Shown: positions 2,306-28,289 of the stretch, one piece after another
How positions within the stretch are numbered: the first letter of the stretch is position 1
Layout: every line of letters begins with the position of its first letter
Virus record (IMG/VR): IMGVR_UViG_3300048839_001209
Location: 1 to 29,552 of that record
Origin: a virus
Strand: one strand, 5' to 3'
DNA length: 29,552 nucleotides
The notes under the pieces: model-generated
Databases searched by the model: none
What the model was told of the DNA's origin: nothing
What the model saw: only the letters and a program-made list of their open reading frames with translations
Position numbers and translations under genes: made by a program

Positions 2306-2556
2306 ACCTGTGCCCCCTTAGTGTTCGTATCACGAATTTCCCGTCGGATTTCCCGAATGGCCTCGTGAGCCGCATTGATGTCTTTTGTGTGTTCCGTTTC
2401 TACAACCGTTACCCTGGAATCAAGTTTGGCGATAAACCAAACGACCCGCCCGATGCCGTAGAAAATCGTCACTACCGTGCCAATGTTGGCGAGCACCAAG
2501 GTGCCGATAATCACGTACCAACTGGTGGGGATTTGCGCGATTGCTTGCTCAGCCAT
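2302..2556 (-). CDS. Putative holin: membrane-anchored coiled-coil protein
   Basis: 84 residues. An N-terminal hydrophobic stretch (residues about 13-43, WYVIIGTLVLANIGTVVTIF then a short polar turn and VVWFIAKL) gives one long or two short membrane helices. A charged helical tail follows (VETEHTKDINAAHEAIREIR), predicted to form a coiled coil. Short phage membrane proteins with this layout immediately next to an endolysin are commonly holins or holin-like proteins. The ATG lies inside the 3' end of the endolysin gene (8-nt overlap) and the stop overlaps the next start, so the three genes form a coupled cassette. Holin function is inferred from topology and neighbourhood. Confidence 0.65.
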   Translation of the reverse strand: MAEQAIAQIPTSWYVIIGTLVLANIGTVVTIFYGIGRVVWFIAKLDSRVTVVETEHTKDINAAHEAIREIRREIRDTNTKGAQV

Positions 2557-2980
2557 TTGTCACCCACAGAGGATAATTCGGTAGCACGATTGCCACGATG
2601 TCTTTTCGGTGAGTGTAGGGCCGCACACGAACCGAGGCACCAGTCTTTGCGGCTTCCTGGGCGTTGGTCGTGGCGTGCCCCCCGCCGCCAGCCTCAATGA
2701 TTTGATACTCGCTCAAACATAAAGAGACATGGGAAATGGCCTGCTTTGATGTCCCATAGAACACCAGGGCGCCAGCTTTTGGGTTATTGAGCGGAATGCC
2801 GCCTTGGACGAGAAGGGTGTCATAAAGCCCACGCGCGGTCTGGTCTCCTTTGGGGTCGGCGCCAACTGATTGCAGCACATGCTGGACGAACCCCGAGCAA
2901 TCGAACCCTTGAGGCGAGTTCCCGCCCCAAACATACGGCACACCGATAAAGCGCATGGCGTAATCAAGCAAGGGTTTCAC
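2549..2980 (-). CDS. NlpC/P60-family peptidoglycan hydrolase (endolysin)
   Basis: 143 residues with the full NlpC/P60 cysteine-peptidase core. The segment VPYVWGGNSPQGFDCSGFV carries the catalytic Cys28, ISHVSLCL carries His84, and a Gly-rich EAGGGGHATT carries His102 as the likely third residue. This family cuts D-gamma-glutamyl-diaminopimelate type bonds in cell-wall peptides. There is no signal peptide and no binding domain, as expected for a holin-dependent endolysin. The start is a GTG with an AAGGAG site four bases upstream, overlapping the glycosyltransferase stop by 17 nt. Putative holin genes follow directly. An alternative is a tail-associated wall hydrolase used at entry, but the position next to membrane proteins favours lysis. 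Confidence 0.88.
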   Translation of the reverse strand: MKPLLDYAMRFIGVPYVWGGNSPQGFDCSGFVQHVLQSVGADPKGDQTARGLYDTLLVQGGIPLNNPKAGALVFYGTSKQAISHVSLCLSEYQIIEAGGGGHATTNAQEAAKTGASVRVRPYTHRKDIVAIVLPNYPLWVTNG

Positions 2981-3968
2981 GCCACTCCTTATCCGTGTGA
3001 ACGGGTTCTTCCCGGTAACGCTGCACAGACCAGGCGGCCCACTCGGCCATTTCGATTGGCTCAGGCAACCAGGACTTTAAAAGCTCCGGGTCGCATTGGT
3101 CCACGGTCACGTCGTTGGCTTTGTTCGGCAAATGGTCAAGGTGCTCCCATATTCCGCCCCGGCCAAGGTTCTTCATTCGCCAGGACCACTCACCCATACG
3201 CCAATGAGAAATATAATCAGGATGCTTGCAAGTAGCCACGAATCCGATGAAGGCATGGCCGCTGGCTCCAATGTGAATGGGACTGGAGTCATTGGTCAAA
3301 ATCACTTTCGCTTGTTGTAGCAGGTAAACCATCCCGTTTAGGTCGAGTTGGTTTCTCAAGTCTACACAACCTTCAGTGTTCACGTCCACAGTTCCCCTGG
3401 CATCGTCCAAGTCTTTTCCGATGATTACCGGAATAAAGCCAAAACCCCTAAGACAAACTAAAACCTCGTCCCACCATTCTTTGGGGAAGGTCTTTGATGG
3501 CCAGTGTTTTCCGGGGTGAACCACAACGCTGGCATCCGGTATGGCAATGGGAGTGGAGTAAAGTTTCACTTCCTTCGAGGCGATGGGAAGTGTGCAGCGA
3601 AAGGCCGAGAGTGCGGGAAAGTCCACGCAGTTGATAATGCAATGGTTGAGGAAACTCCAGGCGATGTCGCGCTGGTCGCAAATCGTTTGAAAGGTGAGGT
3701 ACTTGTCGTAGGCCGGTTGCTCTTGTTCAAGATCGAAAACGCGCTTGAATTTCAAATGCCTAAAAACTTCCGGCACGTAGGTCGCAAGGCTCAGTTCCGC
3801 CTTGTCGCCGAATTGCTCAAGCGCATAGCGTAGAGTCGGTTCCGCACACACTTGGTCGCCGAGCCCGCCCCAGGTGGTAATCAGCAAATTCTTTTCCGTT
3901 CCGTTCTTGAGCGCCTTAAACGCGCGGAACGCCGGAATCATGTGGGCCGGGACGACGATTTGGTCCAT
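2964..3968 (-). CDS. Glycosyltransferase family 9 (heptosyltransferase-like)
   Basis: 334 residues from the ATG at 3968, which overlaps the stop of the RCC1 gene (TAATG). An ATG at 3980 adds four residues but lacks a ribosome-binding site. Family 9 signatures are visible. They are a Gly-rich N-terminal loop (TWGGLGDQV, residues about 32-40), the second-domain motif VVVHPGKHWPSKTFP, the segment VILTNDSSPIHIGAS that matches the nucleotide-sugar-binding T-x-D-S-x-x-x-H-x-A region, and a trailing GxWEHLD. Family 9 enzymes include the ADP-heptose:LPS transferases of Gram-negative bacteria. Here the gene sits in the late operon between a virion propeller protein and the endolysin. It could modify host surface glycan or glycosylate a virion protein. 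The donor sugar cannot be read from the sequence. Confidence 0.85.
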   Translation of the reverse strand: MDQIVVPAHMIPAFRAFKALKNGTEKNLLITTWGGLGDQVCAEPTLRYALEQFGDKAELSLATYVPEVFRHLKFKRVFDLEQEQPAYDKYLTFQTICDQRDIAWSFLNHCIINCVDFPALSAFRCTLPIASKEVKLYSTPIAIPDASVVVHPGKHWPSKTFPKEWWDEVLVCLRGFGFIPVIIGKDLDDARGTVDVNTEGCVDLRNQLDLNGMVYLLQQAKVILTNDSSPIHIGASGHAFIGFVATCKHPDYISHWRMGEWSWRMKNLGRGGIWEHLDHLPNKANDVTVDQCDPELLKSWLPEPIEMAEWAAWSVQRYREEPVHTDKEWRETLA

Positions 3969-5491
3969 TACCCCACCCATTGGAATTCAACGCGTTTGCA
4001 AAACTGCGACGATGACAAACCCAATTCCCCAATCACAATGGGGCCTGGAGTGTAGGCGATGGTGATGGTATCCCCAGGGGTAACATCGACCTCATGGACT
4101 TCGGATTTAACCTCGGGCCTTTTCCACCAAATATTTCCGTCGGTGGTTGGGCCTACGATATTTGGTCCCAGCACTTGTTGTGGCGCCGAGAATCTTAAAG
4201 TCCCGGAATTTATCCCCAGGTTTCCAGCCGCCGTGTTCTCGCCCCAGCCGTAGCGGGTTCCAAACTTCGTGACCGCTTCGACGAAACTCCCTTGCAGCGG
4301 CTTGACCAAACACTCAACGATGTCGGCGGAACCGATTGAGAACACCAACGTCGGCACTGATTTCTTAGCCACGTCGTTGGTACCAAGAACCGGGAACAGC
4401 GTTTCCTGGTGTCCCCAGGCGTAGAGCCTTCGGTCGTTACCGATGGCGTAGGCCGATTGGCCCGCGGCATAGGCTTTCCAGGTGCCAACGGAACTTAAAC
4501 CAGTGACGGCAACCGGCGAGCTTTTGGGGAAGATGTTTCCCTGGCCCAGTTGGCCCGCAGTGTTCAGTCCCCAAGCATAAAGGGTTCCGTCTTTGGTGAG
4601 GCCCATGGAGAAATCAGTTCCCGCCATGATGTCGCGAAACTTCAAACCCCCAATCACGGCGACCGGCGAGCTTCGAGTTTGAATGGCGTTGTCACCAAGT
4701 TGGCCCGAAGTTCCCATTCCCCATGCGTAAATATCCCCGCTTTTGGTGAGACCAAGCGTGTGGTGAAGGGGCACAGCACCGCTTTGCGCGCACCGCTCGA
4801 TCTTCACGAAATCAAGGGCGCCTAACACCAATGTCGGTGTACTTTGTGAGCCCAAGATGCCGTTACCTAAACTTCCGGTTCCGTCGTAGCCCCAACCCCA
4901 CATTTGCCCGTCGCTATCTTTGGCGAATATGCCGACGGCGGAAAAGGTTTGTTGGTCGGGCCAAAAATCCGTGAAGGTGTGGCCACTAACCAGAGTCGGT
5001 GTGGACCTTGAGGCCACATCACCAGTTCCCAGTTGGCCGTGCTCGTTTCGCCCCCAGGCGTAAAGCTCACCGTTTTCTTTGAGGCCGTAGCAGGTATTAA
5101 CACCGCGATAGATTTTCTTGAACACATGCCCGCCGGAGACGAGGGTCGGAACGGACCTAGTGGCCACGTCGCCCACACCAAGTTGTCCGTGGGAATTGGT
5201 TCCCCAGTTGATGAACTGCCCATCGGCACGGTGGAACGGGGCCTTCATGATGCCGGTGAAAAAGCTGATATTTACCGGCGACAAGCGACTGGTGTTGGTA
5301 CCGTCGCCCACTTGAGCCGCGCCCCATGAGTACATGTCGCCGAATTGATCGAGGCCGTTGGTGGGGAAGAATGCATCGTCGTCGAAGTTTTCCTGGAACA
5401 CCACTCGAAGCTTGTTCACACCGGCAGGTACCGTGAACTGGTCGCTTGTGGAGCCCTGGCGAGCGAATACCTTTTTGACGAGATTCTTCAT
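3968..5491 (-). CDS. RCC1-repeat beta-propeller virion protein (putative adhesin)
   Basis: 507 residues, ATG with an AAGGGG site upstream. The body (residues about 50-430) is built of some seven to eight RCC1-type repeats of about 50 residues. Each carries a 'Y-x-W-G-x-N-x-x-G-Q-L-G-x-G' core and a following 'S-x-P-T-L-V' or 'S-S-P-V-A-V' strand; examples are LYAWGRNEHGQLGTGD and LYAWGLNTAGQLGQGN. RCC1 repeats form a seven-bladed propeller. A short N-terminal domain (VKKVFARQGSTSDQFTVPAGVNKLRVVF) and a C-terminal beta domain (EVDVTPGDTITIAYTPG) flank it; both resemble modules seen in phage fibre proteins. Placement within the tail-fibre block suggests a surface-exposed receptor-binding or decoration role, which is an inference. 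The fold assignment itself is firm. Confidence 0.88.
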   Translation of the reverse strand: MKNLVKKVFARQGSTSDQFTVPAGVNKLRVVFQENFDDDAFFPTNGLDQFGDMYSWGAAQVGDGTNTSRLSPVNISFFTGIMKAPFHRADGQFINWGTNSHGQLGVGDVATRSVPTLVSGGHVFKKIYRGVNTCYGLKENGELYAWGRNEHGQLGTGDVASRSTPTLVSGHTFTDFWPDQQTFSAVGIFAKDSDGQMWGWGYDGTGSLGNGILGSQSTPTLVLGALDFVKIERCAQSGAVPLHHTLGLTKSGDIYAWGMGTSGQLGDNAIQTRSSPVAVIGGLKFRDIMAGTDFSMGLTKDGTLYAWGLNTAGQLGQGNIFPKSSPVAVTGLSSVGTWKAYAAGQSAYAIGNDRRLYAWGHQETLFPVLGTNDVAKKSVPTLVFSIGSADIVECLVKPLQGSFVEAVTKFGTRYGWGENTAAGNLGINSGTLRFSAPQQVLGPNIVGPTTDGNIWWKRPEVKSEVHEVDVTPGDTITIAYTPGPIVIGELGLSSSQFCKRVEFQWVG

Positions 5492-15840: not shown

Positions 15841-16138
15841 CCAATTCCCCCTCAATCAGCATTCGCTCATAAAGCGCCGGATTCTCGATTTGCAATAAAT
15901 CGAGACGGTCCTCGGCTGACTCCAAGTTCTCGCGAACTAAGGTGTCCGAGGCGGCCTCTTTAAGCTCTGCTTCGGTTGGGGGGTGGATTTCACTCTCAAC
16001 CCTTTTCGTTTGCCGGTCTTCAACCCGGCAAAACTGCACGGAAATATCACCGATCTTCAACTCAGTGACTCCCGCCGATTTGCAAGCTTTCAGTATGCGG
16101 ACCAATTCTTCCGCGGTGTATTTTTGCTCACCACTCAC
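15806..16138 (-). CDS. Small protein between terminase and portal
   Basis: 110 residues from a GTG at 16138 (VSGEQKYTAEELVRILKACK), with GGAG nine bases upstream; the start lies in the last codons of the terminase gene. An ATG at 16192 would add 18 residues but needs a 65-nt overlap, unusual for this operon. It has two helical parts. The first is ELVRILKACKSAGVTELKIG followed by a short strand DISVQFCRVED. The second is acidic (EAELKEAASDTLVRENLESA then RLDLLQIENPALYERMLIEG). The end overlaps the portal start. A 'L-x-I-E-N-P-x-x-Y-E' segment is common in small proteins of phage head operons. The function is unknown; a packaging or head-assembly helper is plausible. Confidence 0.72.
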   Translation of the reverse strand: MSGEQKYTAEELVRILKACKSAGVTELKIGDISVQFCRVEDRQTKRVESEIHPPTEAELKEAASDTLVRENLESAEDRLDLLQIENPALYERMLIEGELGDRRASAETQN

Positions 16139-17684
16139 TTCCTGATGCTCCGCTGAGTTCGTTCCAAAAGTCAAATTCTTCGCTAATTTCATCGGTCTTC
16201 CGCTCGCCGCCCATGAACCACTCCCGGCGTTTCTGGGCCTCGGTCAGTTCAACCTTGGGCTTGCGTTCCGCTGCCAATTCATCATCGACTTTGGTAGTGA
16301 GTTCGATGTCGGAGAAGTCCCAAGGCACCGCCATGGCGGCATAGCGCAACGCATCGACCAAATCGTCGGATGCCTTTTTCTTGTCGATGTCCGTCGGTAG
16401 CGTGCAAATCTCATGGACCAACTTATCCAACTCCGGGTCGCCCCGTTGGATTTTGAGCATTCCGTTCTTGAACAAGGTGTTCAAAAGCCCGAAGCCAGCG
16501 TCCCGACCCTTGTCGGCGGGGATGAAACTCTCGCCCACCCGGCTCGCGACCGTAAAAAAGTCCTTCGCTGCCCAATCATAGGACTGGGCCGCCATCGGGA
16601 TTTTGCCCTTAAGCTCCCGGTACTTGTCGAGTATGTCGGACGCCGCAGTCGGAACCCCATCGCCGCGCCAGCCGCGCACCACCCGCCCCTGTTTATAGTC
16701 CGGGCTCACCGCGATTATCACCATGGCCGCCGGATGGCCCGACTGTCCGCCGGAGCCTGGGTCCACGCCGCCGTAAAACACCCAGGACGACGGCATTGGA
16801 TGAGGCTCGGACATATTCCGCTCCAGGCTAAAGGATTCAAGCCTGAGGCCATGGGAGCGCACAAACCGCCCATACACCCGGCGCTGGACTTCAGCTTCCG
16901 TGGGGCAGTTCTGTTTGGCCGCCTCGATCTTTTTGTCGGTCCAGGGACTTGGTGTGCCGTCATCATAGACTTGAGAGTCATAGAGGCTCGCTTGAATCTT
17001 CAGGGCGTCCGGATGTTTCTCGTCGGCCTTGGTCGGCGGCTCCATGGTCATTTGCCAGTGCAATTGACCAAGGGTTGCGGTGAACACCATCAGGAAGTGC
17101 CCTTCCGTGGCATTGGTTCTGGCTTTGAGTTCCGGCAAATATTCGACCGGCATTTCCTCGTCGGCGGTGACGTGATAAACACTCGCCGTTTGCAGGTCCT
17201 TTGCTTTCATTGAATAGGACTTGAATTGAATCTGCACGCCAGTGTTGAACCGGATTTTGGAAATGTACCCCTTGTCGTATTCTTCCTCCCAGCCAAATTG
17301 CGGATGGTTTTTGAACTCGTTTTTCGGCATGAGGGTCGGAAGCCACGCCGTCTCCCACGCGGTTTGCGCGACGGGGATGGTTGGGTAGAAGTACCAAAAC
17401 AAATTCGGCACACGGCCCTTCGGGAGATTTGGCCACATCGTCGGCCAAAGCGAAGGGTCCGTTGCCAACCTTATGTTTTTACGAATGGCGATGGTGGACT
17501 TCCCCACTTGGTTAGCGGAGCACACGAAAATTTCCCGGTTGGTCGAAAGCCAAACTTTTTTCTGCCACGGGTAGAACTTGAACCCGTACAAATGCGGCAA
17601 CCCATCGTGGATGCGCTGAAGTTCCTCAAGCTGTTTTAATTCGGCAAGCTTGCGCTCGTATTCCTCTTTTGACCAATCACTCAT
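16128..17684 (-). CDS. Large terminase subunit (packaging ATPase and nuclease)
   Basis: 518 residues from the ATG at 17684, with GGTGAG five bases upstream; a GTG at 17690 is an alternative. The ATPase domain has a Walker A-like loop (CSANQVGKST, residues about 55-64) and a Walker B segment (VYHVTADEEMP, about 169-179). The nuclease domain begins with the Asp-containing strand WVFYGGVDPGSGG (near residue 310) and contains DDLVDALRYAAMAVPW (near 455), with the usual acidic residue. Terminase cuts concatemeric DNA and drives it through the portal into the head. An 'S-A-N-Q-x-G-K-S' loop is typical of the P22-like/headful group. The start overlaps the small-terminase stop by 8 nt. Confidence 0.93.
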   Translation of the reverse strand: MSDWSKEEYERKLAELKQLEELQRIHDGLPHLYGFKFYPWQKKVWLSTNREIFVCSANQVGKSTIAIRKNIRLATDPSLWPTMWPNLPKGRVPNLFWYFYPTIPVAQTAWETAWLPTLMPKNEFKNHPQFGWEEEYDKGYISKIRFNTGVQIQFKSYSMKAKDLQTASVYHVTADEEMPVEYLPELKARTNATEGHFLMVFTATLGQLHWQMTMEPPTKADEKHPDALKIQASLYDSQVYDDGTPSPWTDKKIEAAKQNCPTEAEVQRRVYGRFVRSHGLRLESFSLERNMSEPHPMPSSWVFYGGVDPGSGGQSGHPAAMVIIAVSPDYKQGRVVRGWRGDGVPTAASDILDKYRELKGKIPMAAQSYDWAAKDFFTVASRVGESFIPADKGRDAGFGLLNTLFKNGMLKIQRGDPELDKLVHEICTLPTDIDKKKASDDLVDALRYAAMAVPWDFSDIELTTKVDDELAAERKPKVELTEAQKRREWFMGGERKTDEISEEFDFWNELSGASGSEW

Positions 17685-18324
17685 CGTCACTCACCGGAGT
17701 CACATCCTTAATCGGCGCCGGATTAAGAAGTTTGGTTTTCAACTCGTTGAGTTTTTCCTCAATAGCTTTTGGGTCAATGGGGTCGGTGTTGTTTTTCGCG
17801 TTCACGTCCACATTGAGGTTCTTGGATTCAATTCTCTGAACCACCGGCCCAAGATGACGGTCGGCGAGCATTTGGAATGCCTTCAAGATTGTCGGTGCCG
17901 ATTTCTCCGTTACTGGCATGTTCAAGATGCCATCGCGCACCTTTTGAAATGCGAAATGGTAGGCTTCCTCGATGATTGCTTGGTTGTCGATAGGCGGCGA
18001 AATCAACCAGGCGATGCGCGCCGGGTTTTTAATAAGCTCGTTGTAGAAATAAGGGTCCGAGCAAACCCCTCCATATATATCGACCATTTTGAGACGCATG
18101 GTCCCCGCCTTCTCGACCTCATAGAACTTGGTCCAAAGCTGTTTCTTCATGGCGTAATCCATGGGGGTTTTGCGAAAAAGTTTCCCCAGTTCAGCCTCGT
18201 CCTTTAAATGGTACTCCGGCGGCAGTTCGTTGATGGCTCGCATGATGCGGCTATCCTCTTTAAAACAGGACAGTAATTGGTCACGACGACTTTGGACTTC
18301 CAAGTCAGTTGATGCTTCCCCCAC
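17677..18324 (-). CDS. Small terminase subunit
   Basis: 215 residues from a GTG at 18324, preceded by AAGGGG at suitable distance. It is the first gene of the late operon and directly precedes the large terminase. The sequence is mainly helical (LKDEAELGKLFRKTPMDYAM, TKFYEVEKAGTMRLKMVDIY), with IIEEAYHFAFQKVRDGILNM and ILKAFQMLADRHLG. The C-terminal tail is charged and Pro/Asp-rich (IDPKAIEEKLNELKTKLLNP). Small terminases form rings that recognise the pac or cos site and regulate the large subunit. The assignment comes from position, size and the helical layout; the DNA-binding motif itself cannot be pinpointed by eye. Confidence 0.8.
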   Translation of the reverse strand: MGEASTDLEVQSRRDQLLSCFKEDSRIMRAINELPPEYHLKDEAELGKLFRKTPMDYAMKKQLWTKFYEVEKAGTMRLKMVDIYGGVCSDPYFYNELIKNPARIAWLISPPIDNQAIIEEAYHFAFQKVRDGILNMPVTEKSAPTILKAFQMLADRHLGPVVQRIESKNLNVDVNAKNNTDPIDPKAIEEKLNELKTKLLNPAPIKDVTPVSDDE

Positions 18325-18442
18325 TAATATTTACCCCTTTAACAAGCCTATCCATTTTACCTTGGATATTGCAATGGGAGCGAGTTTAGGCTATCCGGTC
18401 AAGCACTAAAGGGTTCCTAAACTTAAAAAAGAGAGGTCTGCC
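18325..18442. promoter_or_regulatory. Divergent control region between late operon and plus-strand operon
   Basis: This 118-nt region separates the leftward terminase gene from the rightward TnpA-like gene. It holds an inverted repeat TATCCA(18349-18354)/TGGATA(18363-18368). It also holds an octamer AGTTTAGG (18383-18390) mirrored by CCTAAACT (18416-18423), and a CACTAAAGGG (18404-18413) identical to the core of T3-type phage promoters. On the minus strand, TAAAAT within AAGGTAAAATGG (18355-18360 on plus) could be a -10. A GAGAGG site precedes the plus-strand ATG. Which element drives which operon cannot be settled by reading. Confidence 0.6.
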
Positions 18443-18721
18443 ATGAACGCCAATGAAAAGGCAAAAACCATTATTGCCAGCCATAAGGCCGGTGAGGGTT
18501 CTATCAAAGAACTCTGTAAAAAGCACGCAATGAATCCGGCTTATTTCTACCAAGTCCGGAAAAAGCTCGCGCCCAAGTCCAAAAAGGTGAAGGTCATCAA
18601 AAAGCGCAAGTACACCAAGCGCGCCAAAATGATGGACATCCCCCTCGTCTCCGAGGCGCCGACCAAATACTACATCGTGGTGTGCGAATCCGCTGATGCG
18701 GTTAGAAAACTCGTGGGGTAG
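18443..18721 (+). CDS. IS66 TnpA-like HTH DNA-binding protein
   Basis: 92 residues, ATG with GAGAGG six bases upstream. Residues about 5-42 form a helix-turn-helix of the transposase OrfA type (KAKTIIASHKAGEGSIKELC, then KKHAMNPAYFYQVRKKL), matching the 'G-x-S-[IV]-x-E-[LV]-x-x-x-x-x-[MV]-N-x-x-x-x-x-x-[WV]-R-x-x' pattern. A very basic linker follows (KSKKVKVIKKRKYTKRAK). The C-terminal YYIVVCESADAVRKLVG could correspond to the short strand-helix module that ends IS66 TnpA proteins. The next gene resembles IS66 TnpB, which strengthens the reading. No DDE transposase follows and I see no terminal inverted repeats, so it is more likely a phage regulator of transposon origin than part of an active IS. 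Confidence 0.75.
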   Translation: MNANEKAKTIIASHKAGEGSIKELCKKHAMNPAYFYQVRKKLAPKSKKVKVIKKRKYTKRAKMMDIPLVSEAPTKYYIVVCESADAVRKLVG

Positions 18722-18725
18722 TCAC

Positions 18726-19034
18726 ATGAAACTTGCGAGAGTGTTTTTAGAAACCGACATGCGAATGGGTTTTCAGGGGCTTCACCGCCTCTTGAGCAAA
18801 AACCAAATAAGCCCGATGAATCTCAACCCGGAACACTACTACGTGTTCATGAACCGTGCGCGCACCAAGTTCAAAGTTATCAGTGGGCACTATCTCGTGT
18901 ACTTCAATAACGGCAAGCGCCTCATCCCGCTCGAAGCCATTCAGTACCTACCGAAAAACTTCGGCGGCACACAGCTTGAAATGTCCGAGGCCATCAGGAA
19001 AGTGGTCCTGAAGCAAGTTAGGCACGAACAATGA
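18726..19034 (+). CDS. IS66 Orf2 (TnpB)-like protein
   Basis: 102 residues from the ATG at 18726, four bases after the preceding stop; a start at 18696 is possible but overlaps that gene. The segment ETDMRMGFQGLHRLL (residues about 9-23) and the later YYVFMNRARTKFKVI match the two hallmarks of IS66 Orf2/TnpB ('D-M-R-x-G-x-x-G-L' and 'V-F-x-N-R-x-x-x-x-[KF]-[KL]'). The length is close to the usual 110-120 residues. Downstream of the hallmarks the sequence departs from the family (HYLVYFNNGKRLIPLEAIQY). TnpB is an accessory protein of IS66 transposition with an unresolved biochemical role. Here it is coupled to a TnpA-like gene and followed by a small membrane protein, not TnpC. Confidence 0.72.
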   Translation: MKLARVFLETDMRMGFQGLHRLLSKNQISPMNLNPEHYYVFMNRARTKFKVISGHYLVYFNNGKRLIPLEAIQYLPKNFGGTQLEMSEAIRKVVLKQVRHEQ

Positions 19035-19189
19035 ACTTGGAAGCGCTGAACGAAATTCTTCAGTGGTCACTTATCCTGCTGGCTTTACGGGCCCTGTGGG
19101 TTGTGGTTCCATCCGTAGCAGACCTTCAAAAATTAGCGCTCGAAAATTCCCGGCTTGAGCGCCTAAGGAAACATCTTGGAAAAGACTAA
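19031..19189 (+). CDS. Small membrane protein with charged helical tail
   Basis: 52 residues. The ATG overlaps the TnpB-like stop (ATGA). Residues about 11-31 (QWSLILLALRALWVVVPSVA) form a hydrophobic segment interrupted by one arginine. An amphipathic, charged helix follows (LQKLALENSRLERLRKHLGK) that could form a coiled coil. This size and topology suit a phage inner-membrane accessory protein or a small bitopic regulator. It is the first of three tiny membrane-type genes in this operon. No homologue is recognised. Confidence 0.6.
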   Translation: MNLEALNEILQWSLILLALRALWVVVPSVADLQKLALENSRLERLRKHLGKD

Positions 19190-19394
19190 ACCGTCTTTAT
19201 GGGGAGGGCCGGGTTCAATCAAATGGACGGACCCAAGCCTCAAATGGCTCGTATTCTACAACGAACTCACGGACGTGCTCGTTGTCGGCTGTTTAGTTCG
19301 TGACATGTGGTACATGGAATCGGACCATGGCTACAACTACTACTTCCCCGAGGAACTTGGACACACGGGGCATGTGAAGCTGGGGGAACTTTGA
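19176..19394 (+). CDS. Hypothetical protein
   Basis: 72 residues from a TTG at 19176 with AGGAAA five bases upstream, overlapping the previous gene by 14 nt. The composition is rich in Trp, Tyr, Gly and Asp (KPSLWGGPGSIKWTDPSLKW, RDMWYMESDHGYNYYFPEEL) with a central hydrophobic strand (LTDVLVVGCLV). It looks like a small folded cytoplasmic domain with exposed aromatic residues. No motif is recognised. The strong ribosome-binding site and the start-stop coupling on both sides support a real gene. Confidence 0.6.
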   Translation: MEKTKPSLWGGPGSIKWTDPSLKWLVFYNELTDVLVVGCLVRDMWYMESDHGYNYYFPEELGHTGHVKLGEL

Positions 19395-19636
19395 GCGCAA
19401 AGGTCTATGAGGGTAAAGGTGGTGAGGTCAACTTCGGATGCGAAGAAATCAACGGCCTCTACACTCCCTTTATTCAAATCACCACTTCGTTTGGAAAAAC
19501 AATTAAACTCAGCGCCGATTGCGGCGTGGAAAGCATTGAAGATGGACGACGATTCTGTGAATTCATTTTCGGAGCCGTTTCAAGACCAAGAGGCGAAATC
19601 CGCCGATTCCCTGACGGAGAACCTCATGACGCCTAA
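19391..19636 (+). CDS. Hypothetical protein with a TTG start
   Basis: 81 residues from a TTG at 19391 that overlaps the previous stop (TTGA), with GGGGGA about four bases upstream. It reads SAKVYEGKGGEVNFGCEEIN, then LYTPFIQITTSFGKTIKLS and CGVESIEDGRRFCEFIFGAV. This is a plausible small beta-sheet domain followed by a helix, and the residue choice is that of a real protein. A competing frame that starts at 19407 covers the same DNA, but its first 45 residues are basic and low in hydrophobic order. Its likely real start is further downstream. The function is unknown. Confidence 0.62.
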   Translation: MSAKVYEGKGGEVNFGCEEINGLYTPFIQITTSFGKTIKLSADCGVESIEDGRRFCEFIFGAVSRPRGEIRRFPDGEPHDA

Positions 19637-20099
19637 CTCTGACGCCATGAAAAGCATCATTGAGAACACCCGGCAGTTCTTAAAGGTCGGCGAAACCCTA
19701 CTTCCCACCTTTTTCGTCGGCAACGGCCAAAATGTGAGCGTGCTTGGCGTGCAGTGGGCGACCGAACAAGACAAAGATATCGCCGCGGCTGGTGTTAAGC
19801 GGTTGGCGAAGGAAATGAGCGCCATTTTCGTGCTCTTTGTGGCTGAAACATGGATGCTATCCGAGGATGCGGCCAATGATTTCATGAAAAACCCGAAAAA
19901 GTACAAGTCCGTTGCCGAGCATCCGGGGGCCGAGGAAGTGGTGTATTTCACACTGGAAACCAAGACAAAAACGTGGTTTGCCAGTGCTCCCATCCTCAAA
20001 GACCGCGAACTTGGCGAAGTTACCTGGCGACTTCAAGACCAGGGCGCTGCAAAAGGGCGATTCACCGACTTTCTGGTCGATAAACCAGTGATGCACTGA
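19626..20099 (+). CDS. Hypothetical cytoplasmic protein
   Basis: 157 residues from the ATG at 19626, which has GGAG six bases upstream and overlaps the preceding stop by 11 nt. Upstream in-frame starts at 19542 and 19407 are possible but lack comparable support. The protein alternates helices and strands (MKSIIENTRQFLKVGETLLP, VGNGQNVSVLGVQWATEQDK). The middle, AKEMSAIFVLFVAETWMLSE, leads to DFMKNPKKYKSVAEHPGAEE and then VVYFTLETKTKTWFASAPIL. A pattern of 'V-x-x-F-V-x-E-x-W' plus 'S-x-x-P-x-x-x-E-x-V-x-F-x-x-E' followed by a 'W-x-x-x-A-x-I' strand resembles small phage proteins annotated only as hypothetical. No catalytic residues stand out. Confidence 0.68.
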   Translation: MTPNSDAMKSIIENTRQFLKVGETLLPTFFVGNGQNVSVLGVQWATEQDKDIAAAGVKRLAKEMSAIFVLFVAETWMLSEDAANDFMKNPKKYKSVAEHPGAEEVVYFTLETKTKTWFASAPILKDRELGEVTWRLQDQGAAKGRFTDFLVDKPVMH

Positions 20100-20266
20100 T
20101 GGAAAACCCGTATATTCGCGCCTTATTTTGGATTTTCCTCACCATCGCTTTGATTTTGATAATTAGCTGCGCCACAAAAAAGCCGGAATGCACGTTCGTG
20201 TGCGCCGACCCACACGACATTCCCGGTTCCTGCGCGTGCGCGGAAGAAATGATGGGGGAAAAATGA
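20099..20266 (+). CDS. Small Cys-rich lipoprotein
   Basis: 55 residues; the ATG overlaps the previous stop (TGATG). The N terminus (NPYIRALFWIFLTIALILII) ends in a lipobox-like IISC (Cys24). Five further cysteines lie in the mature part (CTFVC, CAC). This predicts a lipid-anchored envelope protein that is exported and held by the acylated Cys24. Small lipoproteins of this size in phages include outer spanin subunits and surface-exclusion factors. Neither can be assigned here, and the high Cys content is unusual for a spanin. It is followed by another tiny membrane protein, to which it is coupled by a 4-nt overlap. Confidence 0.62.
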   Translation: MENPYIRALFWIFLTIALILIISCATKKPECTFVCADPHDIPGSCACAEEMMGEK

Positions 20267-20373
20267 CCATAGCTACCTGGGCCGCCGCGATACTCGCACT
20301 TTTCATTTTGGTCTTTGGGCTTTTGGCCGTTTCATGTTTAATTAAGGAAATGTGGGAAAGGCTGTTTAAGTGA
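20263..20373 (+). CDS. Tiny single-pass membrane protein
   Basis: 36 residues, beginning at an ATG overlapping the previous stop (ATGA) with GGGGGA a few bases upstream. Residues 5-24 (TWAAAILALFILVFGLLAVS) form one hydrophobic helix. A short, amphipathic cytoplasmic-type tail follows (CLIKEMWERLFK). The stop overlaps the next start. A longer in-frame reading from 20188 would invade the lipoprotein gene and is rejected. Its role is unknown; it may act with the upstream lipoprotein as a membrane pair. Confidence 0.58.
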   Translation: MTIATWAAAILALFILVFGLLAVSCLIKEMWERLFK

Positions 20374-20720
20374 AAGTTGATGGTGTCAGACACCGCTTCA
20401 GCAGGCGACGGTTCGCCATTCATGGCGGCGATATTATGGTGGAACTTTTCTGGCACGCCGGATACCGAACTACCGGCGCATTGGTTCTCCACAAGCCCAC
20501 CGGCAAATGGGACGTGGTATTCGGTCGGCTGGGAAATAAAGCCAACCGCCCGATCATCAGCAAGGTCCGCCAACTCTCGATTTGGCTCGCTCACCCGGAA
20601 GTACAAAAGGTCTCAAAGCGCCTACTCGGTCGCAAGGCTTTCCGAAAAAACGAGGCATTGATGTGGGTTAAGGAAATCGACCCTAACCCGCATAATATGC
20701 CTGGTCCCGATCATACCTAG
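20370..20720 (+). CDS. Paralogous family member A (unknown function)
   Basis: 116 residues from a GTG at 20370 overlapping the previous stop (GTGA), with GGAAAGG upstream. Residues 24-52 (VELFWHAGYRTTGALVLHKP then TGKWDVVFG) resemble residues 45-73 of the protein encoded at 21668-22249 (VETFWHYGHNARGIELHHKE then SGRCEMLIG). Residues 74-88 (AHPEVQKVSKRLLGR) continue the match (DPDLQKRIDRLEGK). The shared pattern is a short beta-meander with 'G-x(4)-H-K-x-[TS]-G-[KR]', then a helix starting '[DH]-P-[ED]-[LV]-Q-K'. The family sits on both strands. Its 3' end overlaps the convergent zinc-protein gene by 38 nt. No known domain is recognised. Confidence 0.68.
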   Translation: MKVDGVRHRFSRRRFAIHGGDIMVELFWHAGYRTTGALVLHKPTGKWDVVFGRLGNKANRPIISKVRQLSIWLAHPEVQKVSKRLLGRKAFRKNEALMWVKEIDPNPHNMPGPDHT

Positions 20721-20871
20721 TTCCCTTGCTCGTTAAGTGAAATCCGTTACAGCGTTTGCAGTGATACGCCCTTAGGCCAATCATCCGGCCCCGTTTATCG
20801 GCGTCATAGAAATTCTTAAAGCGGTCCTTAGCGCAGCGCGCTTTGCGCCGGAACTTTTGAAAATTTCCCAT
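20683..20871 (-). CDS. Small zinc-binding phage protein
   Basis: 62 residues. A very basic N-terminal half (NFQKFRRKARCAKDRFKNFY) leads to AYHCKRCNGFHLTS, in which Cys38, Cys41 and His45 can bind zinc. The 'Y-x-C-x-x-C-x-x-[FW]-H-[LI]-[TG]-S' segment is a common one in tiny phage and plasmid proteins of unknown function. Strong positive charge suggests nucleic-acid binding. No ribosome-binding site is evident before the ATG, so the start is less certain. It is the last gene of the leftward early-type operon and overlaps the convergent plus-strand gene. Confidence 0.65.
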   Translation of the reverse strand: MGNFQKFRRKARCAKDRFKNFYDADKRGRMIGLRAYHCKRCNGFHLTSKGTRYDRDQAYYAG

Positions 20872-21166
20872 GGAAAAATTAAATCAAAGTCCCCTGAATT
20901 GCACAAGGGGCGGACGTTAACCACACCCAATTGGAAGCCGTGCCCTGATTGTTCTCCCGTGTGGCCGGGGGCAAGATGACTAGCGGGCATCGTCCTTGCG
21001 ATTCTTTCCAGCGGTTGGGGGTCGGCGCCGTCCTACCAACTTGGTCCAGTAGAGTGACGGATTTGACTTTCCCACATCATTACCCTTCAATCAAGGGGTG
21101 CGTTGCCGTCCCTAATCGAAGGTGGTTGGAGGGGACAAGGTTAACCGGCTCACCATCACGCACACC
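20872..21166. other. Non-coding interval downstream of the recombinase gene (candidate attachment or regulatory site)
   Basis: About 295 nt without a convincing gene. I see no tRNA-like T-loop on either strand. Several short inverted repeats are present: ACCAA-C-TTGGT (21035-21045), CCCTT(21083-21087)/AAGGG(21093-21097), and CCCCT(20891-20895)/AGGGG(20906-20910). An attP core often lies next to an integrase gene, so this is the first place to look, but nothing proves it. It may also carry the leader of the small zinc-protein gene. Confidence 0.4.
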
Positions 21167-21667
21167 CTAGCCCACCAACACTTTGCGGAGTTCCTCTTGG
21201 GAGTAAACGAAATCGACGTACACCATGGTGTTGCGCAAATCTTTGTGACCAAGGGCCAACTGCACGAGTCGGATGTCGCGGGTTCGTTTGTACAATTCCA
21301 CCGCAAAGGTATGCCGAATGGAGTGGAACTTTTTCCCGTTTGGGGAAAACTGGTCCCAGATTTGATGCAATCTCGAATACGTGATGTCGAATGGTTTCTC
21401 CCCCTCAAGTTTCACGATGGCATTATATAGCGACTTAGGTAGTGGCAGCGTTCGGTCCCGTGAGCCCTTTAATCCACGGATATACACAGCCTTTTCCACA
21501 TCATCGAGGTCGGCCTTGGTGATTGCCAGAATCTCAGAGGCCCTGGCCCCGGTCGCAAACGCCAATTGAATAATAATTTGGTCGCGATTCTCCAACCCCT
21601 TGGTCATGGCTCTTAGCCTTTTGGCCTCGTCGGGGTCTAAGAATTTATCCTTGGTGAGTGCCAACAT
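21167..21667 (-). CDS. Catalytic-domain-only tyrosine recombinase
   Basis: 166 residues, ATG immediately after the upstream stop with GGGGGA six to seven bases before. All tyrosine-recombinase catalytic residues are visible. They are Arg42 (ATGARASEIL), Lys67 (IRGLKGSRDRTLPL), His115 and Arg118 (HSIRHTF), His141 (LALGHKDLRNT) and Tyr150 (MVYVDF). The N terminus carries no SAM-like core-binding or arm-binding domain, so the protein is about half the usual phage integrase length. Such short forms include FimB/FimE-type invertases and stand-alone resolvases. It may act with a partner, or invert or resolve DNA locally instead of integrating the genome. The gene lies at the end of a leftward early-type operon. 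Confidence 0.88.
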   Translation of the reverse strand: MLALTKDKFLDPDEAKRLRAMTKGLENRDQIIIQLAFATGARASEILAITKADLDDVEKAVYIRGLKGSRDRTLPLPKSLYNAIVKLEGEKPFDITYSRLHQIWDQFSPNGKKFHSIRHTFAVELYKRTRDIRLVQLALGHKDLRNTMVYVDFVYSQEELRKVLVG

Positions 21668-25277: not shown

Positions 25278-26282
25278 ATGAGACCATCAGAGCTTAAGGC
25301 ATTGATCGGAGACCGATTCAAGGCTGGAATCAAGCGCCCGTTGCTTGTCGAATCAAGTCCAGGCATCGGCAAAACCCAAATCGCCTCACAAGTCGCCACG
25401 GAATTGGGTATTGGGTTCCAGGCGATTCACGCGCCATTGCTCCAACCGGAAGATTACGGGTTCCCGGTAATCACAAGCGACAAGACCAGCGTGAATTTTG
25501 TTGTCGCAAAAGACAAGTTTCCCATTGAGGGGTCCGCCGTCGCTGAGACTGGAATCTTCTTAATTGACGAATTGTCTCAAGCGGACAATTCCGCGCAAAA
25601 GATTCTAGCTAACCTAATTCAAGAGCGGGAGATTCACGGGCAGCGCCTTAAGCCTAATTGGTTGGTCATCGCAACCGGCAACCGTCTCATTGACCGTGCC
25701 GGAGCTAACCGTCTCTTGTCTCATCTTAAGAATCGTCTCACAACGGTTGAGCTTGAGGCATCAATTGATGACTGGTCCCAATGGGCCATTGAGAATGGCG
25801 TCAAGTCGGAAGTAATCGCATTCCTGAGATTCCGCCCGGAATTGCTCAATGCTTTTGACCCGCAAAATGATATCAATGCCACGCCTCGGTCATGGGTCGA
25901 GGGAGTCAACGCCGCATTGGGAGTCATTACTCCCGCGCTTGAAATGGAAGTATTCAAGGGAGACGTGGGCGAGGGAGCGGCAGCGGAATTTTGCGGATTC
26001 CTTAAGGTCTACCGGAAGCTTCCGTCTCCCGATTCCATCATGCTCAACCCGGCAAAAGCTGAGATACCAAAAGATCCCGCGACTCTTTACGCGCTTTGCG
26101 GCGCCTTGGCCCACAAGACCAGCGCGGACAATTTTGGTCGTATCATGACTTATGTGGGTCGAATGGCGCCGGAATTTACCGTCTTGTATGTGAGGGACGC
26201 CATCCGTCGCAAAGCTGAGATACAAGCGACAAAAGAATTCATTGACTGGGCATCGGGTCCCGGCGCGAAGCTTTTGTCCTAA
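25278..26282 (+). CDS. MoxR-type AAA+ ATPase
   Basis: 334 residues, ATG with GGAG seven bases upstream. Walker A is ESSPGIGKT (residues 25-33). Walker B is IFLIDELSQA (93-102) followed by an AAA+ box-like ILANLIQEREIHG, and sensor 1 is VIATGNR (130-136). Further down are NRLLSHLKNRLTTVEL (the arginine-containing box) and NATPRSWVEGVNAAL. The MoxR/CobS branch uses ATP to remodel or insert metal or proteins, usually with a von Willebrand-type partner. Here the DUF3150-like and metallopeptidase/VWA-like genes follow in the same operon. This is a firm family assignment; the substrate is unknown. A role in host take-over or phage assembly is inferred. Confidence 0.9.
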   Translation: MRPSELKALIGDRFKAGIKRPLLVESSPGIGKTQIASQVATELGIGFQAIHAPLLQPEDYGFPVITSDKTSVNFVVAKDKFPIEGSAVAETGIFLIDELSQADNSAQKILANLIQEREIHGQRLKPNWLVIATGNRLIDRAGANRLLSHLKNRLTTVELEASIDDWSQWAIENGVKSEVIAFLRFRPELLNAFDPQNDINATPRSWVEGVNAALGVITPALEMEVFKGDVGEGAAAEFCGFLKVYRKLPSPDSIMLNPAKAEIPKDPATLYALCGALAHKTSADNFGRIMTYVGRMAPEFTVLYVRDAIRRKAEIQATKEFIDWASGPGAKLLS

Positions 26283-26310
26283 ACTGAAACACTTTACAGG
26301 GAGTATCAAA

Positions 26311-27156
26311 ATGAGTCTAAAAACCAATGCATTACTCGTATCCGTCAATATCACTCAATGGACGGGTCGAAAATTCGACAAGCGCGCAACCGGCACGGTT
26401 GAGGCAACCCACGCAACGGACCAAGGTGTGGGCAATTTCACTAAAAAATTGCTTCCGGGCGCCGCTGAATTGGAAGCAATCCAAAGCGCCGCCTGGGCGT
26501 TGCGAAAATTCTTTTATGAGAATACGCTTCCATGGGCGGCGGATGGCGCGCGTATCGTCTCAAGTCAAAATTACTTTCCTTTCACTCAGGAATTTAGGAA
26601 GCGCAAAGCGGAATTTGACGCCCACGTTGCGGCATTCCTAACCGAATACCCGCGATTACAAGACGCCGCCCGACGGAAGTTAGGCGACTTGTTTAGTGAA
26701 TCGGAATACCCGGAGATTACCAGGCTAGCCGCAAAATTCCGTTGCGAAATGGCCATTTTCCCGGTCCCTGATATCGGAGACTTCCGCGTTGAAATCAGCG
26801 ACGCGGAAAAACAAGTATTCCTAGATTCCATGGCACGGGTCGAGCGGGACGCGCTGAACGATTGCTACAAGCGATTACTTGACGTGGTTAGCAAGGCAGC
26901 GGAGCGACTCAAGCAACCCGATGCCGTATTCCGGGAATCTCTGATTGGGAATATCGTTGAGCTTGTGGAATTGCTCCCGCGACTCAACCCAATTGATGAC
27001 CCAAAGCTTGAGGCGTTGCGAGCGGAAGTCCAGTCCGTAGTTAGCAAAGTCTCAGCGGAATCAATTCGGGCATCGGAAACCACGCGCGCCGATACGGCAA
27101 AACAATTGGAAGACATCGCTTCCAAAATGGACGCTTTCATGGGCGGTGCTCAATGA
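26311..27156 (+). CDS. DUF3150-like protein
   Basis: 281 residues, ATG with GGGAG seven bases upstream. Sequence features agree with DUF3150: NALLVSVNITQWTGRKFDKR, then THATDQGVGNFTKKLL, LRKFFYENTLPWAADGARI, FTQEFRKRKAEFDAHVAAFL, and a C-terminal coiled-coil-like helix (ALRAEVQSVVSKVSAESIRA). Proteins of this family are habitually encoded between a MoxR-type ATPase and a VWA-like metallopeptidase, as here. Biochemical function is not established. The operon spacing is tight: 28 nt after the ATPase and a 4-nt overlap with the next gene. Confidence 0.8.
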   Translation: MSLKTNALLVSVNITQWTGRKFDKRATGTVEATHATDQGVGNFTKKLLPGAAELEAIQSAAWALRKFFYENTLPWAADGARIVSSQNYFPFTQEFRKRKAEFDAHVAAFLTEYPRLQDAARRKLGDLFSESEYPEITRLAAKFRCEMAIFPVPDIGDFRVEISDAEKQVFLDSMARVERDALNDCYKRLLDVVSKAAERLKQPDAVFRESLIGNIVELVELLPRLNPIDDPKLEALRAEVQSVVSKVSAESIRASETTRADTAKQLEDIASKMDAFMGGAQ

Positions 27157-28289
27157 GTCAAGTCAATTACATGACCAAAGCCAAAGCTCAATTGATACTT
27201 GACCATCCGTTTTTCGCCTCAATTCTTTTGGGTATGACCATGGCGGAAGACACGTCAATTCCGACCATGGCAACCGATGGCGAGTCAATTCGGTTCAACC
27301 CGGAATGGGTCGCAACCCTTAAGCTCAATGAATTGACTTTCGTGCTCGCCCACGAAGTCATGCATTGCGTATTCCAACACATGACCCGACGGAATCACCG
27401 CGACCCTAACAAATGGAACATCGCTGGAGATTACGTAATCAATGACGTGCTCGTTAAAGAGCGCGTGGGCGCCATGCCTCACGGCGGGTTGCTCAACCCA
27501 CAATTGGTCATTGATGGTAATGGAACGACTGAGGGAGTTTATAACTTGCTCCCTGAGCCGCCGCCAAAACAAGACGGCTCAAGCGGAGACCATCCGGGAG
27601 CGGGTCAACCGGGCGGCGCGATGGACCAAGTAATGGACGCGGGTCAAGACCAGGCAACCAATTCCCAAAAGGAAGCGGAAATGCGGGTCCGAATCTGTCA
27701 AGCGCGCAACGCTGCCAAAATGGCCGGGAAACTCAGCGCCGGACTTGAGCGGTTAGTCTCCGATCTTGTCCAGCCACGCGTTGACTGGCGCGCGGTTTTG
27801 CGTCGATTCCTAACCACGCGAGCCAAAATCGACTTGTCTTATGCGAGACCAAAGCGCCGCTTTCTAGCCGATGACTTGTATCTTCCGGGACTAACCGGCG
27901 AGCGACTAGGCCGGATTGCCGTTGCCGTCGATTGCTCAGGGTCAATTGATGACAAGACGCTAGCGGAATTCAGCGCGGAGATTAAGGCCATCGCGGAAGA
28001 TACGCAACCCGAAGCAATTGAAATCGTCTATTTTGATTCGGAGATTTTGCGGCGGGACGTGTTTGAGCAAGGTCAAGCGGTTGAGATTCACGCCATGGGC
28101 GGCGGCGGTACCGCGTTCAGTCCGATATTCGAGGCGCTGATGGAAGTCCCGCCCATTGCTTGTGTCGTACTGACGGACTTGTGTTGTGATGACTTTGGTC
28201 CCGCGCCGGAATATCCGGTCTTGTGGGCGTCAACCCATGACGGCGAGGCGCCATTCGGCGAAATCGTCTTAATGCGAGACAGGAGGTAA
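27153..28289 (+). CDS. Putative metallopeptidase with VWA-like domain (DUF2201-type)
   Basis: 378 residues. The N-terminal domain has the zinc-protease motif HEVMH (residues 67-71, in ELTFVLAHEVMHCVFQH). This is followed by WNIAGDYVINDVL, which supplies a likely third ligand. A low-complexity Gly/Pro/Gln linker (residues about 135-175) leads to a VWA-like domain. That domain carries the metal-ion-dependent adhesion site: Asp260-x-Ser262-x-Ser264 (VAVDCSGSIDD), Thr320 (GGGGTAFSP) and Asp342 (VVLTDLCCDDFG). Such proteins pair with MoxR ATPases. The ATG overlaps the DUF3150-like stop (ATGA). Whether the protease is active cannot be decided by sequence alone, but the zinc motif is intact. Confidence 0.88.
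   Translation: MSQVNYMTKAKAQLILDHPFFASILLGMTMAEDTSIPTMATDGESIRFNPEWVATLKLNELTFVLAHEVMHCVFQHMTRRNHRDPNKWNIAGDYVINDVLVKERVGAMPHGGLLNPQLVIDGNGTTEGVYNLLPEPPPKQDGSSGDHPGAGQPGGAMDQVMDAGQDQATNSQKEAEMRVRICQARNAAKMAGKLSAGLERLVSDLVQPRVDWRAVLRRFLTTRAKIDLSYARPKRRFLADDLYLPGLTGERLGRIAVAVDCSGSIDDKTLAEFSAEIKAIAEDTQPEAIEIVYFDSEILRRDVFEQGQAVEIHAMGGGGTAFSPIFEALMEVPPIACVVLTDLCCDDFGPAPEYPVLWASTHDGEAPFGEIVLMRDRR

Follow-up and report, generated by a model that had tools for sequence, protein, structure and literature searches.

The window analysed here, a stretch of 29,552 nucleotides from the IMG/VR virus record IMGVR_UViG_3300048839_001209, carries two small plus-strand genes that resemble tnpA and tnpB of IS66 elements. 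Both open reading frames were confirmed at their coordinates: the tnpA-like gene (18443-18721) encodes a basic protein of 92 amino acids with a net charge of about +16, and the tnpB-like gene (18726-19034), a homologue of IS66 Orf2, encodes 102 amino acids with a net charge of about +9. An alternative tnpB start is possible at 18696; the conserved start is the ATG at 18726. An earlier, sequence-only reading of this DNA had placed the two genes in IS66 order and almost abutting, at the head of an operon that diverges from the small-terminase gene and continues with a 52-residue membrane protein, and this layout was confirmed. The gap between the genes is 4 nt. The third gene (19031-19189, plus strand) encodes a 52-residue product with one hydrophobic segment and no family match, which was not detected in relatives by tblastn. 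On the minus strand lie the putative terS gene (17677-18324), which has no family match and is named from its position beside terL, and terL itself (16128-17690), which matches Terminase_6C and phrog_2. A short tyrosine recombinase of 166 amino acids, comprising the catalytic domain only, is encoded at 21167-21667 on the minus strand and is conserved nearby in relatives.

By profile comparison, the homology of the second protein to IS66 Orf2 is firm. It scores 28.4 bits (E 1.6e-6) against PF05717 (TnpB_IS66), over the curated Pfam cut-off of 26.6, in a match limited to profile positions 9-51 of 101. Against the NCBIfam model IS66_TnpB (NF033819) it reaches 27.5 bits, under the equivalog cut-off of 50, and on such scores it is a homologue rather than an equivalog. 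In nucleotide searches the PF05717 cut-off was passed only by the window and its near-identical contig, with relatives scoring 18.7-21.6 bits. When compared with a profile of 12 true IS66 TnpBs, all six phage TnpBs identified in this work outscored the entire set of 1,200 shuffled sequences. Profile-profile comparison with hhalign gave E-values of 4.7e-9 to 1.3e-10 and aligned 71 columns, reaching near the C-terminus, at E 1e-10; these values, like that for TnpA below, come from single-pair comparisons and are hence optimistic, the shuffle test being the stricter check. The AlphaFold model of TnpB is of moderate quality (pLDDT 77; models of both proteins were built from four sequences). It had no match at E < 0.001 in the PDB and viral structure libraries, and among solved structures none was related to TnpB by sequence.

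The first protein is a less clear case. Its description as carrying an OrfA-type helix-turn-helix (HTH) stood as regards the HTH, since AlphaFold2 predicts an N-terminal three-helix unit with helices at residues 3-15, 21-27 and 32-42 and a pLDDT of 84-89 across residues 1-40. This HTH segment (residues 3-42) is encoded at 18449-18568 on the plus strand, overlaps the stretch aligned to PF01527 (residues 10-53), and is followed by a C-terminal segment of the form D/E-I-P-L ... V/I-V-x-C ... helix. The family assignment fell short of both curated cut-offs, at 19.1 bits against 24.1 for PF01527 and 20.0 bits against 28 for the IS66 TnpA model NF047593; of the two Pfam matches that the sequence-only reading proposed to check, that of TnpB lies above its cut-off and that of TnpA below. 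The best named matches are IS66 TnpA-type models, which, all being below cut-off, are suggestive. Aligned with an IS66 TnpA profile, the HTH gave an hhalign E-value of 1.1e-7, and this profile match gets weaker once distant phage members are added. Because the shuffle test was passed by six of six TnpBs and clearly beaten by only one of the six phage TnpAs, we regard TnpB homology as firm and TnpA homology as probable and leaning on gene order. That order is constant: at all six phage loci an HTH gene lies directly upstream of tnpB and is coupled to it, and each locus encodes two basic proteins. Five of the loci show a gene overlap of 4 or 14 nt, the window pair instead being separated by its 4 nt, and an overlap was also found in all IS66 elements examined.

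The phage TnpBs combine retained IS66 motifs with features of their own. Both Orf2/TnpB hallmarks noted from the sequence were located in the alignments, D-M-R-x-G-F-x-G-L at residues 11-19 (18756-18782, plus strand) and F-M-N-R-x4-F-K at residues 41-50 (18846-18875, plus strand). The D-M-R and F-x-N-R...K motifs are present, with small changes, in four of the six phage TnpBs, and DMR has become HMG in the phages designated G014 and G015. Common to all six is an (A/L)QYLPxxFGG block with an invariant core, in the window A-I-Q-Y-L-P-K-N-F-G-G at residues 71-81 (18936-18968, plus strand). Conversely, all six lack a K-R-x-E-x-G-x-F-x-W-P block, in which K, R, E and P never vary among the 12 IS66 TnpBs aligned. 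Relative to IS66, the phage proteins have an N-terminus 8 residues shorter and a longer C-terminal part. An IQ-TREE phylogeny splits the six from the IS66 TnpBs by a long branch with support of 100/100. This is most simply explained by a single capture of the pair by phages, although a tree that is unrooted and short allows other readings. The G014 protein looks intermediate, as it retains F-I-N-R-R-G-D-K-L-K-V-L, close to IS66.

These comparisons bear on whether the pair derives from IS66 at all, or is an unrelated HTH protein beside a small basic protein whose resemblance arose by chance or convergence. Such an origin would explain why TnpA stays below the curated cut-offs and why the TnpB match spans half of the profile while the rest differs. 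It does not fit a TnpB that exceeds both the Pfam cut-off and all shuffles and aligns over 71 columns, the IS66-like motif of G014, or a gene order and overlap like those of IS66, and we consider it very improbable.

No transposase accompanies the pair. The DDE transposase TnpC (PF03050) was absent from the window and from genomes G001-G010, G014 and G015, in a search that was positive in control genomes. A second contig, IMGVR_UViG_3300048838_001349, overlaps the window at both ends with 99.9-100% identity, from which the virus genome appears to be circular or permuted and about 46.5 kb long. Together the two sequences cover this apparently circular genome, and all of it was searched for PF03050. 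Known IS66 elements have inverted repeats of 22-35 bp and 8-bp target duplications (PMC3281130). Repeat searches around the pair gave no plausible IS end: the best flanking repeats (18035-18048 and 19254-19267) were dismissed since the left arm lies within the intact, conserved terS gene. The sequence-only reading had reported neither TnpC nor visible terminal inverted repeats at the locus, and in both respects it was right.

The same arrangement recurs in related phages. In the window, G002 (locus L012) and G003 (locus L011), the pair comes first in an operon that diverges from terS, and identities among the three are 64-70% for TnpB, 65-70% for terS, 74-75% for terL and 34-38% for TnpA. Codon positions 1 and 2 of tnpB are conserved far above the saturated position 3, to the same degree as in terS and terL; we give no dN/dS value because dS is saturated. 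Beyond the pair the operon differs among these phages, except that each gave a weak match for one small gene. In a fourth relative (L006/L007), which shares their terminase and intergenic region, the pair is missing: the first product of the operon is a 32-residue membrane peptide, and a different HTH protein (HTH_23) comes next. In L006, where these two are encoded at 1900-2235, the peptide (MNLDWSQILIGLAILALAI...) resembles the start of the window ORF at 19031-19189, and the HTH protein has 53 amino acids. More distant relatives (L009, L010) encode XRE-type HTH proteins upstream of terS.

The canonical IS66 gene order without TnpC could be what is left of an IS66 insertion in decay. Decay is at odds with intact frames in six diverged phages and protein conservation at the level of the terminase, as well as with the lack of ends, the separate phage clade with its distinctive block and the shared location in three phages. 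We therefore reject a decaying insertion on the grounds of conservation and of the absence of ends and TnpC, and its remaining probability is very low.

The 118-bp divergent region between terS and tnpA (18325-18442) is conserved in the four related phages. It contains a palindrome, ATTGCAAT (18368-18375), that is invariant in all four, including the one without the pair, and a plus-strand box, GTCAANNACTAAAGG (18398-18412), that is largely conserved, with up to 2 differences, and has no second exact copy in the window. Neither is supported as a TnpA operator, since the relative without tnpAB has both; for the same reason, a role as basic elements of the promoters is likelier than one as sites for TnpA. 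Judged by eye only, ATTGCAAT could be a -35-like element common to both directions. A scan of 18200-21300 for sigma-70 consensus promoters found none, and no operator specific to tnpAB carriers was found.

Phage genomes with the pair and without TnpC, which the sequence-only reading had suggested looking for, were found in five cases: G002, G003, G004, G014 and G015. The last three have little else in common with the window phage. A profile-based scan identified G004 (L025), whose TnpB is 45-48% identical, and a scan for the QYLPxxFGG block identified G015 (L062, TnpB 40%) and G014 (L060, TnpB 29%). In each of the three the HTH-type gene overlaps the tnpB start by 4 nt, TnpC is lacking, and the pair adjoins no terminase. 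In G004 an exonuclease VIII gene flanks the pair on one side and an integrase gene on the other, and the operon also includes RusA and DnaD-like genes; in G014 the neighbouring genes are those for SSB, an Erf-like annealing protein and an O-like replication protein; and in G015 the surrounding genes are unnamed, an exonuclease being encoded some 9 kb away. Because the collection was scanned through short exact peptides, the pair may be more widespread than seen here. Scans of bacterial genomes with the phage TnpB alignments, which detect only short near-exact peptides, found no relative. Among GenBank phages and plasmids there was no close TnpB relative, the best plasmid matches being two ordinary IS66 TnpBs at 36%.

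Such surroundings raise the alternative that the pair, instead of regulating transcription, assists phage DNA recombination, replication or packaging, for example as an architectural or loading protein for a recombinase, an annealing protein or the terminase. The exonuclease VIII, integrase, RusA and DnaD-like genes of G004 point this way, as do the Erf-like, SSB and O-like genes of G014 and, in the window group, a location between terminase and tyrosine recombinase; IS66 TnpA and TnpB are, moreover, themselves part of a DNA transaction system. However, the relative without tnpAB has the recombinase just the same (the 21167-21667 protein has 52-54% identity in G002, G003 and G006, whether tnpAB is present or not), no partner gene is constant over the four phage types, and regulators too are found in early operons. 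We consider an accessory role of this kind rather unlikely, though it is the chief alternative to a transcription regulator.

Several other features of these genomes were recorded. The window encodes, on the minus strand at 3968-5491, a 507-residue protein of RCC1 repeats (PF00415, PF25390, E down to 9e-57), in a region of small, repetitive genes of structural type; a phage is an unusual place for RCC1 propellers. Also on the minus strand, at 2549-3980, an NlpC/P60 peptidase gene overlaps a glycosyltransferase family 9 gene; G014, a phage otherwise unrelated, also encodes a relative of this glycosyltransferase, at 54%. On the plus strand at 25278-28289, genes for an AAA (MoxR-like) ATPase, a 304-amino-acid protein and a DUF2201 metallopeptidase/VWA protein follow in a row; they are conserved in G002 (82, 67 and 68% identity) and resemble the cellular MoxR-VWA module. 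L011 has a long TA/GY-rich tandem repeat (3607-4078, minus strand) whose overlapping frames give repeated GYGNGY or TATATA peptides.

Ordinary IS66 elements also enter phages. A canonical IS66 TnpB query from a Marinobacter plasmid finds 26 GenBank phage records, in 24 of which tblastn places TnpC on the same strand just downstream; Pfam identifies it in a 25th, and the 26th record stops about 240 bases past TnpB. The loci inspected follow the usual A-B-C order, in full or as B-C only. In a further alternative, the phage pair would interfere with IS66 by imitating TnpA/TnpB while making no working contact with TnpC, either blocking insertion into the phage genome or stealing the host element's transposase. 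Entry of IS66 into phages (TnpB then TnpC in 25 of the 26 records) is consistent with this. So is the pattern of retention, in which DMR and F-x-N-R are kept and the near-invariant IS66 block, conceivably the TnpC contact, is lost, as might be expected of a dominant-negative form. But interference of this kind does not need the fixed place before the terminase seen in three phages, and we judge it improbable.

Overall, six distinct phages, belonging to four unrelated kinds, have conserved and co-inherited the pair, and none has a transposase. The proposal that phages have co-opted these accessory genes is strongly supported by their place in three related phages, their recurrence in three unrelated ones, the absence of TnpC, a phage clade with its own conserved block, and intact coding under protein-level constraint, and we are confident that the pair is an IS66-derived, TnpC-free TnpA/TnpB domesticated by phages. 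What it does is a more tentative matter. Our best explanation as a whole, to which we give somewhat less than even confidence, is that the domesticated proteins act together as a two-protein DNA-binding regulator. The overlapping or abutting genes would fix the TnpA:TnpB ratio, and the two proteins may form a complex that contacts DNA through the TnpA HTH and regulates phage transcription at an early stage. In the window lineage such a complex could act at the divergent tnpA/terS region, controlling its own expression and the timing of the packaging operon. Regulation of transcription, taken on its own as the function, is possible rather than probable; we take it as the most likely role because of the HTH, the first-gene position and the other HTH proteins in the corresponding operon of relatives. 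The context of the pair is of early type in two unrelated lineages, and in the window lineage it is fixed at a divergent promoter region. The sequence-only reading had suggested a regulator of the late operon, a role that is unlikely to be general given the non-terminase contexts of G004, G014 and G015; the conserved promoter elements also persist without the pair.

A broader proposal, which we rate as rather unlikely, is that this phage-specific, TnpC-independent TnpA/TnpB family constitutes an independent module for handling DNA, one that passes from phage to unrelated phage and would serve in recombination, replication, gene control or anti-IS66 activity. If so, TnpA and TnpB would have an activity of their own, which IS66 transposition merely uses. 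A phage family that keeps the pair without the transposase uncouples TnpA/TnpB activity from transposition, and its TnpBs show which part is dispensable (the KRxE/WP block) and which positions are not (G-L, F-x-N and K). These small proteins are suited to a direct binding test. This would be domestication of transposon accessory proteins, not of a transposase, and in viruses. In keeping with the earlier statement that no description of such a pair in phages was known, none was found for the pair without TnpC among open-licence papers.

How does the phage pair compare with known systems? IS66 is a very common IS family, in which TnpA and TnpB would be needed together with TnpC for transposition. 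The phage pair shares with IS66-family TnpA/TnpB the A-B order, abutting or overlapping genes, small basic proteins and the DMR-x-G-F-x-G-L and F-x-N-R...K motifs, and differs in lacking TnpC, element ends and the KRxE/WP block, in having QYLPxxFGG and in forming its own clade. One survey considered extra ORFs of this sort to have a probable part in the regulation of transposition (PMC3281130). The IS66 insertions of Pseudomonas phage Marin, Escherichia phages 4A7 and phiv205-1, and Leptospira phage LnoZ_CZ214 likewise place TnpB homologues in phage genomes, but there TnpC is directly next and the element looks recently inserted and complete, whereas the window pair is without TnpC and an old phage gene module. 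The RNA-guided nuclease TnpB of IS200/IS605 and IS607 has the name alone in common with the window protein, which has about 100 residues and matches PF05717; identity with the IS605 protein was ruled out by size and family. The two are mixed up in the record of phage Marin (OR683406.1), where the IS66 TnpB at L046 2501-2845 is labelled 'transposon-associated TnpB endonuclease'. Defence-system models gave no convincing match. The HTH regulators of relatives (HTH_23 in L006/L007, XRE-type in L009 and L010) are, like the window TnpA, encoded upstream of and divergent from terS, but they are not homologous to it, have no TnpB partner and are not the first gene.
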